Positions 32,988-36,531 of a DNA stretch of 64,000 bases are shown here, piece after piece. Numbering within the stretch: the stretch's first letter is position 1; every line of letters starts with the position of its first letter. The DNA comes from Turneriella parva DSM 21527 (lineage in GTDB: Bacteria > Spirochaetota > Leptospiria > Turneriellales > Turneriellaceae), in assembly GCF_000266885.1 (NCBI RefSeq), contig NC_018020.1, positions 682,001-746,000 of the forward strand, in the 5' to 3' direction. Position numbers and translations under genes: made by a program. The notes beneath the pieces are model-generated. The model had not been told where the DNA came from, did no database searches, and saw only the letters and a list, made by a program, of their open reading frames with translations.

Positions 32988-33060
32988 GGTCATGCCCGCG
33001 AAAGCGGGCATCTATGCCCATGCAAACTAAGGCTAGATTCCCGCTTTCGCGGGAATGACC
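32988..33060. repeat. BIME-like pair of CCCGCGAAAGCGGG repeats
   Basis: Left unit 32988-33014 and inverted right unit 33034-33060 match in 25 of 27 positions, each with a small CCCGC-gaaa-GCGGG hairpin, bounded by GGTCAT/ATGACC. Intergenic, between namZ and feoB. Confidence 0.8.
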
Positions 33061-33148: not shown

Positions 33149-35224
33149 TCACCCAATCCACCGACCCGTCTGGTACACCGCAAACGACGCCGCATACGCA
33201 AGGCTCGTCAGCACCACGAATACCGTGACCGCCCACACAGTGCTGTTCAATTCACGGCGAATTGTCGCGAGCGTACTCATGCACTGCGCGCACAGCGCGA
33301 AGAATATCATGACAGAAATAGCCAGCAGCGCATCGTAAGTGGGTTTGCCGTCAGGTCTTTTTTCGGCGATGAGCTGCTTGCCGAGCACCTCGGGTGATTC
33401 ATCGGCATCGTTGACGCTGAAAATAATGCCGAGGGTCGACACGAAAACTTCGCGCGCGGGAAAAGCCGCCAGCACCGCGACCGAGATTTTCCAGTCAAAG
33501 CCGAGCGGGCGAAAGAACGGTTCTACAGCGACGCCAAAGCGTCCGAGATAGCTATCGCGCAGGTGCACAGACTGCAGTCGAGTTTGCAGCTCTTCTTCGA
33601 ATGCCTTGCGCTCGTCTGCCTTCAGGTTTGCAATGTGCGTCGGCAGATGCGTAACCTTGATGCCCTTTTCGATGGCAAACTGCATTGTCGTCAGATTGGT
33701 CAGTTTCTGGCTGTGCGGAAAATATGCGAGCGCCCAGATGACAATCGACAGCGCAAAGATGATACCGCCGACGCGCTTCAAAAAATTCATCGCGGCATCG
33801 TAAACCCGGCGCCACACATTTTGCAGACGCGGCAAATGGTATTCGGGCAGCTCGAGAATAAACGGGCTCTCGCTGGTTTTTCTGAGCACATGCCGGTTGA
33901 GCAACCACGCGAGCGGCATCGCGACGCTGATACCCACGAGATGCATCGCAAAGAGCGCGACGGCGGCCCATAAAGCGCCAAAGCGCGGCTCGATAAATGC
34001 ACCGATAAAGAGTACGTAGACTGGCAACCGCGCCGAACACGACATCAGCGGTGCAATCAGAATGGTTGCCATGCGCGCGCGGTCAGTGGGCATCACCCGC
34101 GCCGAAAGAATACCCGGCACGGCGCAAGCAAAACTTGAAAGCAGCGGTATAAATGCGCGACCGTTCAGGCCTGTCCAGCCGAGCAGTTTGTCTGACAAGA
34201 ATGCCGCGCGCGCCAGATACCCGGTCTCTTCGAGTATCGCAATAAACAGAAACAAAATCATAATCTGCGGAACAAACACCAGCACTGACCCGGCGCCGGC
34301 AATTACGCCATCGGCGATGAGCGATGCGGTCACGGGGTAGCCGGCAAGCCCTGAACGGGCAGCCTGGCCCATGCCTTTCATAAATCCGTCTATCGCGTCC
34401 ATAACCGGCTTGGCGCCGGCATAGATGCTGAAGAACATCGCGCCGATTATCAAAGTGAACGCGAGCAAACCAAAAACGCGGTGCGTCAGCAAGGCATCGA
34501 TTTTTTTCGTGGGGGAGCTCTTAACTTCTGCCTTCTGCACCGCTTTGCGCAGTATCTTATCGATCGCCGCGTAGGTTTCGTCAATATCCCCTCCCCCGAC
34601 CCCGACCCCTCCCCGCATGCGGGGAGGGGTGCCAGAGGCGGGGTGGGGACATTCACCGACGATCACTTCGACCAGCGACGCAATGTGCTGCTTCGTGGCC
34701 TGCGTCACTTCGACGACGCGAAAACCAAGCGCCTTTTCGAGTGCTTGCACATCAACGGTGTAACCGCGCCGTTTCGCGATATCGCTCATCGTCAGCACGG
34801 CAATTGCAGACACACCGGTTTCTTGAACCTGCAGACACAGGTAGAGCGAACGTTTCAGGTTGCCTGCATCGAGCACCACCACCGCGAGATCGGGCTTTTG
34901 TTCACCGCCCGCTTCGCCGTGCAAGACGCGCGAGGTGATTTCTTCGTCGGCTGATTTTGGTTTGAGGCTATACGTGCCCGGTAGGTCAATAACCTCAAAA
35001 CCTTCGTGGCCTTCTAATAATCCCGCTTTTTTTTCGACGGTGACGCCGGCATAGTTACCCGTATGCTGCCGCGCGCCACAGAGTGCGTTGAAGATCGTGG
35101 TCTTACCCGCATTGGGGTTACCGATCAATGCGACGCGAAACGATGCGGGCTGCGACGGTCGCGCGACAACCTGCGGTTGACGAGTTTGACCTGACTTTTT
35201 CTTATTTGATTTTGCGCGCAGCAT
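33149..35224 (-). CDS. feoB: Ferrous iron transporter B
   Basis: A 691-residue inner-membrane Fe(II) transporter. The N-terminal G domain has G1 GNPNAGKTTIFNALCG, G3 DLPGTYSL and G4-like MSDIAKR; the membrane part includes gate motifs SFACAVPGILSAR and LAAFPAREVFVSTLG with the conserved Cys. About residues 192-212 (CPHPASGTPPRMRGGVGVGGG) are a translated palindromic repeat placed where the G domain joins the membrane part. Its start overlaps the feoA stop by 1 bp. Expected to be iron-repressed through the Fur site at 35728. Confidence 0.96.
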   Translation of the reverse strand: MLRAKSNKKKSGQTRQPQVVARPSQPASFRVALIGNPNAGKTTIFNALCGARQHTGNYAGVTVEKKAGLLEGHEGFEVIDLPGTYSLKPKSADEEITSRVLHGEAGGEQKPDLAVVVLDAGNLKRSLYLCLQVQETGVSAIAVLTMSDIAKRRGYTVDVQALEKALGFRVVEVTQATKQHIASLVEVIVGECPHPASGTPPRMRGGVGVGGGDIDETYAAIDKILRKAVQKAEVKSSPTKKIDALLTHRVFGLLAFTLIIGAMFFSIYAGAKPVMDAIDGFMKGMGQAARSGLAGYPVTASLIADGVIAGAGSVLVFVPQIMILFLFIAILEETGYLARAAFLSDKLLGWTGLNGRAFIPLLSSFACAVPGILSARVMPTDRARMATILIAPLMSCSARLPVYVLFIGAFIEPRFGALWAAVALFAMHLVGISVAMPLAWLLNRHVLRKTSESPFILELPEYHLPRLQNVWRRVYDAAMNFLKRVGGIIFALSIVIWALAYFPHSQKLTNLTTMQFAIEKGIKVTHLPTHIANLKADERKAFEEELQTRLQSVHLRDSYLGRFGVAVEPFFRPLGFDWKISVAVLAAFPAREVFVSTLGIIFSVNDADESPEVLGKQLIAEKRPDGKPTYDALLAISVMIFFALCAQCMSTLATIRRELNSTVWAVTVFVVLTSLAYAASFAVYQTGRWIG
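34588..34648. repeat. GC-rich palindromic element inserted in frame in feoB
   Basis: The core 34606-34629 is a perfect 24-bp palindrome with half CCCCTCCCCGCA. The flanks CTCCCCCGACCCCGA and GGCGGGGTGGGG also pair loosely. The frame of feoB is kept. Confidence 0.8.
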
Positions 35225-35472
35225 TAGGCGACCGTGATTCCCGCGAGATCGGCGCGCCTGACAATAATCGGGGCATCGAGTACCTGCAAAATAACAGGGT
35301 CGCCAAACGGGGCCAGCTTGACGAGCTGAACATGTTCGCCTTTCACCAATCCGATTTCGGCGAGGCGCTCGTTCGCGACCGGCGTCGCGACGATCGTGCC
35401 ACCTTCGCCTGGCATCAGCTCAGTCAAAAACCGCACGACGGGAAGGTTCTGCTTTTTTGGCTCACGTTTCAT
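35224..35472 (-). CDS. feoA: Ferrous iron transport protein A
   Basis: An 82-residue SH3-like cytoplasmic protein. LPVVRFLTELMPGEGGTIVATPVANERLAEIGLVKGEHVQLVKLAPFGDPVILQV is the FeoA fold, which aids FeoB. Overlaps feoB by one base (TAATG). AAAGGT ribosome site upstream. Preceded by a small Cys-containing membrane-protein gene. Confidence 0.95.
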   Translation of the reverse strand: MKREPKKQNLPVVRFLTELMPGEGGTIVATPVANERLAEIGLVKGEHVQLVKLAPFGDPVILQVLDAPIIVRRADLAGITVA

Positions 35473-35517: not shown

Positions 35518-35688
35518 CTATGCGACCCGTCTTCGGGTCTCTGCCTCAGAGCCTGTCGAAGGAGCCTGCCCTGAGCCTGTCGAAGGGCACTTCGCACATG
35601 CCGCTCTGCGCCGGTGAGATATATAGTTGAACACCAAATAAGCGGCAGCTAATGCCACTGCCCCGCCCGCAAACAGATAATCGACCAT
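35518..35688 (-). CDS. FeoB-associated Cys-containing small membrane protein
   Basis: A 56-residue protein from ATG 35688 to TAG 35518. One transmembrane segment (YLFAGGAVALAAAYLVFNYI), a basic stop-transfer RRRAA, and a CAKCP pair match the known FeoB-associated Cys-rich membrane proteins, whose role may be to help FeoB. The C-terminal PSTGSGQAPSTGSEAE is encoded by two CCTTCGACAGGCTC repeats, so the usual Cys-rich tail appears replaced. It is the first gene after the Fur-like site and 45 bp before feoA. Size is below normal gene-calling limits. Confidence 0.7.
   Translation of the reverse strand: MVDYLFAGGAVALAAAYLVFNYISHRRRAACAKCPSTGSGQAPSTGSEAETRRRVA
35549..35586. repeat. Tandem GAGCCTGTCGAAGG repeats
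   Basis: Two identical 14-mers at 35549 and 35573, 24 bp apart, inside the 3' end of the small membrane-protein gene. Confidence 0.7.
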
Positions 35689-35727
35689 ACTTTCAGCCCG
35701 CGTTTACCGACGCGCCGTCAAGCCAAT

Positions 35728-35742
35728 TGAGAATGATTGTCA
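35728..35742. promoter_or_regulatory. Fur box ahead of the feo operon
   Basis: TGAGAATGATTGTCA matches the 7-1-7 Fur consensus TGATAATnATTATCA in 12 of 14 positions; the symmetry extends to AATTGA/TCAATT on both sides (9 of 10 pairs over 21 bp). It is 40 bp upstream of the first feo-operon gene. Confidence 0.75.
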
Positions 35743-35760: not shown

Positions 35761-36102
35761 CTATTCCAGCAGCAGAATCTTCAATGACTCTAGCAGTTGC
35801 CGCTGGTTCTTCGCCGACAGCACACCGCGTTGCTCGACGAAACGGCGATTGTCGATCGAGCGCACCTGATCGACCAGAATGTCAGAAGCGCGCTTCAACC
35901 CGGCAGGCTTCAGGTCGATATGCACGCGCAGTATCTCTGCTTTGGGAGCTACCTTGGTCGATATCGGGCAAACAATAGTGCTGGGATGTACCCCGTTCAG
36001 CAGGTCGGTCTGCACAACAACAACAGGCCGCTTCTTACCGGGCTCGGTACCATATCTTGGATTCAAGTCAGCAATATAAACGCCGAATTTCTCAATTCTC
36101 AC
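35761..36102 (-). CDS. mazF: MazF/PemK-family endoribonuclease toxin
   Basis: A 113-residue toxin starting at GTG 36102. FGVYIADLNPRYGTEPGKKRPVVVVQTDLLN is the MazF core with the conserved Arg, and VCPISTK carries the Ser/Thr segment; DILVDQVRSIDNRRF completes the fold. MazF cleaves mRNA at short motifs. It lies 12 bp after the antitoxin stop; that gap and stop are formed by a CGGTTCGACAAGCTCACCG repeat. Confidence 0.93.
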   Translation of the reverse strand: MRIEKFGVYIADLNPRYGTEPGKKRPVVVVQTDLLNGVHPSTIVCPISTKVAPKAEILRVHIDLKPAGLKRASDILVDQVRSIDNRRFVEQRGVLSAKNQRQLLESLKILLLE

Positions 36103-36121
36103 GGTTCGACAAGCTCACCGC
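36103..36121. repeat. TTCGACAAGCTCA repeat at the toxin-antitoxin junction
   Basis: CGGTTCGACAAGCTCACCG covers the antitoxin stop (36115-36117) and ends at the mazF GTG. Confidence 0.45.
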
Positions 36122-36351
36122 GGCGTGCCATCAACGATCATTTCAAGCTCTTTGAGCATGGCCAACGAATCTGCGGCGACGAGTTTTGACTCAACCGCCA
36201 ACTTCTCTCTCAGCTCGCGCCTACGCTCCAGTGCGTTATAGGCCCTTATGGCTTCGTTGATGTATGCATTGCGCGAAATCTTGCGCCGTTTCACAAAATG
36301 CTCCGCATCTTGTAAGATATCGTCTTCAACCTTGAGAGACATGGCTTGCAT
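36115..36351 (-). CDS. Ribbon-helix-helix antitoxin of the mazF pair
   Basis: A 78-residue protein. MSLKVEDDILQDAEHFVKRRKISRNAYINEAIRAYNALE is a ribbon-helix-helix DNA-binding fold, the rest (ELREKLAVESKLVAADSLAMLKELE) a helical toxin-binding tail. A start at ATG 36342 (MSLKV) is also possible. An inverted repeat sits directly upstream. Confidence 0.88.
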   Translation of the reverse strand: MQAMSLKVEDDILQDAEHFVKRRKISRNAYINEAIRAYNALERRRELREKLAVESKLVAADSLAMLKELEMIVDGTPR

Positions 36352-36460: not shown

Positions 36461-36531
36461 GTCATGCCCGCGAAGGCGGGCATCTATAATCATTTGTGCG
36501 GCGACCAGATTCCCGCTTTCGCGGGAATGAC
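36461..36531. repeat. BIME-like pair of CCCGCGAAAGCGGG repeats, second copy
   Basis: Left unit GTCATGCCCGCGAAGGCGGG... (36461-36486) and inverted right unit (36506-36531), the same family as 32988-33060. Confidence 0.8.

Follow-up and report, generated by a model that had tools for sequence, protein, structure and literature searches.

A conserved one-helix CxxC protein gene ahead of feoA-feoB in Turneriella parva, with a tail encoded by a dispersed repeat

Turneriella parva is a free-living spirochaete with a genome of 4,409,302 bases in two contigs. Within the stretch of DNA analysed here (the window, 64,000 nucleotides of contig NC_018020.1 of strain DSM 21527), a putative Fur-type operator is followed on the minus strand by a small open reading frame (ORF), feoA, and feoB (Table 1). 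The small ORF begins with ATG and encodes 56 residues (MVDYLF...CAKCPSTGSGQAPSTGSEAETRRRVA). AlphaFold2 modelling of the 56-aa protein gives one helix, spanning residues 3-31, and assigns low confidence to most of the tail. Cys31 and Cys34, which form one CxxC, are the sole cysteines of the protein. An initial annotation had described a 56-residue ORF before feoA with a single helix and the motif CAKCP, and this description holds. Just upstream of the Fur site lie a PemK/MazF-like toxin gene and a 78-aa partner ORF (35761-36102 and 36115-36351, both on the minus strand); the partner has no Pfam match, and the pair is also present at the locus of the closest relative, G016.

Table 1. Features of the feo region (coordinates are those of the window)
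Feature	Position	Strand	Basis
Fur-type 7-1-7 operator (predicted), TGACAATCATTCTCA on the minus strand	35728..35742	-	12/14 to TGATAATNATTATCA; one of 4 genome places
Small one-helix CxxC membrane protein gene, FeoB_associated-like	35518..35688	-	feoA-feoB synteny; dN/dS 0.07; PF12669 E 0.013
Conserved part, codons 1-34, helix plus CxxC (Cys31, Cys34)	35587..35688	-	invariant Cys in 11 sequences; helix 3-31
Insertion of two dispersed REP-like units, encoding PSTGSGQA plus PSTGSEAETRRRVA and meeting the stop (far edge approximate)	35520..35586	-	alignment with G016; 22 genome copies
feoA	35224..35472	-	PF04023, E 1.9e-10
feoB	33149..35224	-	PF02421/PF07670/PF07664; TIGR00437, 462 bits

FeoB was searched for in 18 genomes of the order, and the FeoB_C family in 48 genomes of the class, 43 of which matched. 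In the organism's own family (f1), an ORF that encodes a CxxC and a single hydrophobic stretch lies directly before feoA in 11 of the 12 genomes with FeoB_C, a count that includes T. parva itself, so that the orthologues come from 10 relatives. The exception is G010, in which the Fur site, feoA, and feoB are present and the small gene is absent; consequently, Feo can do without the gene. In the alignment of the 11 f1 proteins, only Cys31 and Cys34 are invariant. The FeoB of G016 has 90% identity to that of T. parva, and between these two genomes codons 1-34 contain 24 base differences (4, 2, and 18 at first, second, and third positions), which alter 5 residues. The resulting dN/dS is 0.07. When the same changes were placed at random, 0 of 20000 trials were equally conservative, which shows that selection acts on the protein; these values describe the conserved part, compared with a relative that lacks the repeat, and do not bear on the function of the 56-aa form. 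The annotation had made the gene's standing depend on conservation of the frame in relatives, and the frame is indeed conserved. That the ORF is spurious might be suspected from its shortness, from a score below the PF12669 cut-off, and from the lack of any NCBIfam match to the 56-aa ORF, but this explanation is exceedingly improbable given the f1 synteny and the invariant cysteines, and it is contradicted by the codon-level selection. The small ORF before feoA is a real, conserved protein gene.

Further loci were found across the class. A profile of the f1 proteins (A1) strongly matches 11 of the 48 genomes, and weaker matches in G029, G018, G033, and G023 adjoin feoA-feoB. In a second family (f5), ten candidates were examined, all directly before feoA-feoB, and with 20 further upstream stretches added, a similar ORF is present in 18/18 testable genomes (19 have FeoB_C; the contig of G019 begins at feoB, placing it outside the count). 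The ORFs of G020 and G026 are only loosely similar and were excluded from the f5 alignment (A3). The f5 proteins are often richer in Cys, with motifs such as CSSSCGCS and CGTNCGCG, and several have three or more. Comparison of the two profiles by hhalign gives an E of 7e-14, to be read with the caution that membrane-helix profiles match easily. Eight f6 genomes have feoB with neither feoA nor the small gene detectable in the fetched stretch, and at the divergent FeoB loci of f3 and f4, no small gene was found within the stretches read.

The annotation had also called the order small gene-feoA-feoB unusual. Within the clade it is the rule, being the usual order in f1 and f5; against the literature, in which FeoB-associated Cys-rich ORFs, known chiefly from Firmicutes and Bacteroidetes, lie downstream of feoB (available text of PMC8749426), the description stands, and no account of this order was found in the accessible text of the Feo literature searched. 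For an outside comparison, 80 loci were taken from a contig scan with FeoB alignment and screened by a rough hydropathy rule. A helix-plus-Cys ORF was seen downstream of feoB at 15 of the 75 loci with >500 bp and upstream at 3 of the 74 with >700 bp, one of these three (L204) being probably spurious. The order small gene-feoA-feoB was also seen outside the class at one Holophagae and one Thermodesulfobacteriales locus. Having the small gene first is the norm in f1 and f5 and a minority order elsewhere. At four loci of the Xanthomonadales order (L220, L230, L242, and L260), a one-helix ORF with a Cys-cluster end lies downstream of feoB and is possibly of the FeoI type.

The predicted operator, TGAGAATGATTGTCA, agrees with the textbook Fur box, TGATAATNATTATCA, at 12 of 14 positions, and none of 1000 shuffles was as good. 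It lies 39 bp from the ATG, much where the annotation had placed a 7-1-7 Fur-like site about 40 bp ahead of the ORF, and has the 7-1-7 inverted repeat before an iron gene that is characteristic of Fur operators. The pattern TGANAATNATTNTCA occurs at only 4 places genome-wide, and the reversed-pattern control occurs at none. At two of the three other places, ORFs 40 bp and 14 bp away match ExbB (PF01618) and TonB (PF03544), as is expected of iron-uptake genes, and the genome encodes three FUR-family genes. Among the 29 small-gene loci, 18 show a match of 12/14 or better to the consensus TGAGAATNATTCTCA within 200 bp, where shuffles predict 0.05; this consensus was picked after seeing the loci, so that the P values lean in its favour. 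No Fur-like site was found at 4 of the 11 f1 loci (G013, G015, G011, and G009). In G010, the site lies 39 bp ahead of feoA itself; thus, elsewhere the small gene sits between the operator and feoA. Both the match and its rarity in the genome support the Fur-type control that had been suggested.

Among known proteins, those of PF12669 (FeoB_associated) come closest. This family is the commonest Pfam match of the small proteins (8/11 in f1, best 9.8e-5; 11/16 in f5, best 4.3e-8), and it exceeds its cut-off in 3 of the 48 class genomes, in all three before feoA-feoB. Like PF12669 proteins, the 56-aa protein is small, has a predicted N-terminal membrane helix with the Cys cluster right behind it, and is encoded in the same cluster as feoB. 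In contrast to them, it is encoded upstream of feoA, its tail is repeat-made, and it scores 16.1 bits (E 0.013) against a gathering cut-off of 27 bits; furthermore, it has one CxxC in place of the motif Cx3-5Cx2-3Cx6-8C reported for FeoB-associated proteins (PMC8749426, in the portion available). With cut-off and motif both unmatched, it is not filed under PF12669. The kinship with FeoB-associated Cys proteins that the annotation proposed is supported in a qualified form: the small protein is a divergent relative of PF12669, joined to it through the f5 proteins, and would function as members of that family do.

Two other small Feo components were considered. FeoC, a winged-helix protein encoded after feoB, is likewise a small third component and often contains Cys. 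However, FeoC is cytosolic (according to the accessible part of PMC9047314), whereas the small protein has a membrane helix, and FeoC identity is ruled out. FeoI of Stenotrophomonas maltophilia, as described in the same portion of that source, is a feo operon product with one predicted inner-membrane helix, features that the small protein shares. Unlike the small gene, feoI comes last (feoA-feoB-feoI), and FeoI is predicted to be N-in/C-out, whereas the charges of the small protein suggest C-in.

The tail, PSTGSGQAPSTGSE, consists of a palindromic repeat that is dispersed in the genome and stands here in two copies directly behind CAKC, with a 14-mer occurring twice in the tail DNA, 24 bp apart. 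The repeat core, CCTTCGACARGCTC, has 22 exact copies in the genome (reversed control, 0) and 0-9 copies in six other genomes of the genus. Its usual intergenic form, CACCCTTCGACARGCTCAGGGTGAC, is a hairpin, CACCCT-TCGACARGCTC-AGGGTG, and the copy in the small ORF keeps the stem pairing (GCCCT...AGGGC; single-strand fold z -2.71). The tail DNA has the dispersed copies, palindromic stem, and in-frame position in a gene that mark REP and palindromic elements. REPs are further marked by a GTAG or CGTC tag and by a cognate RAYT gene with the repeat on either side; of the three Y1_Tnp genes in the genome, none has a repeat copy within 1.5 kb, by the patterns used. A third variant of the repeat (GGTTCGACAAGCTCACC, 36101-36117) lies at the junction of the toxin and its partner, overlapping the stop of the 78-aa ORF. 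Another palindromic pair (32989-33059 and 36461-36531; GTCATGCCCGCGAA..., ...ATTCCCGCTTTCGCGGGAATGAC) flanks the feo region, and we take it to resemble the CGTC-type REPs.

Alignment with G016 indicates what the insertion changed. The two sequences diverge right behind the second Cys, after which T. parva has 114 bases to the feoA ATG versus 23 in G016, and 22 residues behind the CxxC versus 7 (GDAHQHP). A repeat-encoded tail had been claimed for this ORF and is confirmed; that it replaced a Cys-rich tail is not, since the f1 relatives have one conserved CxxC followed by tails that are short and variable and have no other conserved Cys, and such a replacement is ruled out. Rather, the comparison indicates that the repeat extended an already short and variable tail. 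The added length and the loss of the overlap with feoA could also be taken to mean that the insertion damaged the protein and that the gene is on its way out in T. parva. This is quite unlikely; the helix and CxxC are intact, tail length varies in all relatives, and no fewer than five further conserved genes of the genome tolerate the repeat. The stop in G016, which shares one base with the aligned feoA ATG, would fit an ORF whose main purpose is translational coupling to feoA and whose peptide is of secondary importance. Such a leader role is very unlikely, because selection acts at the protein level, the helix and Cys pair are conserved across two families, and in T. parva the coupling is broken by 45 bp with feoA still intact. 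A protein whose tail was lengthened remains the preferred reading.

Several other copies of the repeat lie inside long ORFs of the genome, and it is found in frame in MetG, MnmG, ProS, Lpd, and a FabG-like gene. The best solved homologues were compared for these 5 genes out of 22 exact sites (L039 and L058, which are long ORFs with an in-frame repeat, and L040 lay outside the comparison), and in 5/5 (methionyl-tRNA synthetase, MnmG, prolyl-tRNA synthetase, dihydrolipoyl dehydrogenase, and the FabG-like reductase) the repeat corresponds to a gap in the homologue. In prolyl-tRNA synthetase it falls between two aligned parts, and the FabG-like gene (L050:1054-1887, L049) has two in-frame copies, of which only the second aligns as a gap. 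The MetG insert (L060; relatives L272-L277) is absent in 4 of the 5 relatives found, and at that position MetG of G013 has an insert of its own, which is read in a different frame (PSTGSGQ, where T. parva has LRQAQG). For MnmG (L048; relatives L282-L286), G013 has a repeat-derived stretch at the same place, G014 and G015 have none, and G017 has another insertion. In both genes, the repeats of T. parva and G013 occupy one loop, are read in different frames, and look like independent insertions at one spot. The repeat landed in the small gene as it did in several essential genes of the genome. This kind of element is not new. Intragenic REPs and Rickettsia palindromic elements are known from earlier work (PMC3733652, available text), and as here, they are short palindromes in frame in conserved genes that add residues, also at C-termini. 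The present repeat differs from them in its core, CCTTCGACARGCTC, pieces of which are absent from the accessible main text of that paper, and a literature search with this core returned unrelated papers only.

With the existence of the gene established, a mechanism can be inferred. In the favoured model, which is moderately well supported and draws on sequence features, the small gene opens a Fur-repressed operon and encodes a membrane partner of FeoB that has a cytosolic two-thiol site for Fe(II) binding or redox sensing and a dispensable tail. At low iron, Fur would leave the putative operator and the operon would be transcribed. The first gene, given its conserved frame, predicted helix, and Cys pair, would yield a single-pass membrane protein. 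Because HRRR follows the helix, the positive-inside rule places the CxxC in the cytosol, so that the N-terminus is probably outside and the HRRR...CAKC end inside. The helix may pack on the membrane domain of FeoB, and two thiols near the cytosolic exit could then hold Fe(II) briefly or respond to the thiol redox state, tuning FeoB. Since the tail varies among relatives, it would be dispensable past the CxxC, and a REP-like insertion that took the protein from ~41 to 56 residues may have been harmless. FeoI provides a precedent for a one-helix Feo partner, as it interacts with the membrane region of FeoB in a two-hybrid test (PMC9047314, accessible portion). The same protein suggests another explanation, in which the helix by itself modulates substrate use at the membrane domain of FeoB and the Cys pair is structural or redox-active rather than an iron site. 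FeoI is dispensable for the use of FeSO4 and needed for ferric citrate (same portion of PMC9047314), and the four Xanthomonadales-order loci would also fit; however, in 11 sequences nothing but the two cysteines is invariant, which favours a thiol function and makes this explanation rather unlikely.

A wider and more tentative proposal can be made for Feo in this clade. The first-translated, Fur-controlled microprotein might be a standing subunit of FeoB that hands on or senses Fe(II); in T. parva, a mobile in-frame palindromic repeat would have been incorporated into this subunit, just as it has been into a number of housekeeping enzymes, where in some cases it reached one and the same loop independently in different species. 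For FeoB-associated Cys-rich ORFs, translation into a functional peptide was posed as an unanswered question (available text of PMC8749426). Codon-level selection, together with synteny in two families, constitutes direct evidence that such ORFs encode protein, and the two-Cys form offers a minimal version for probing the role of the thiols. In addition, the repeat marks where a small protein tolerates extension, in a genome in which several essential enzymes have repeat-made loops.
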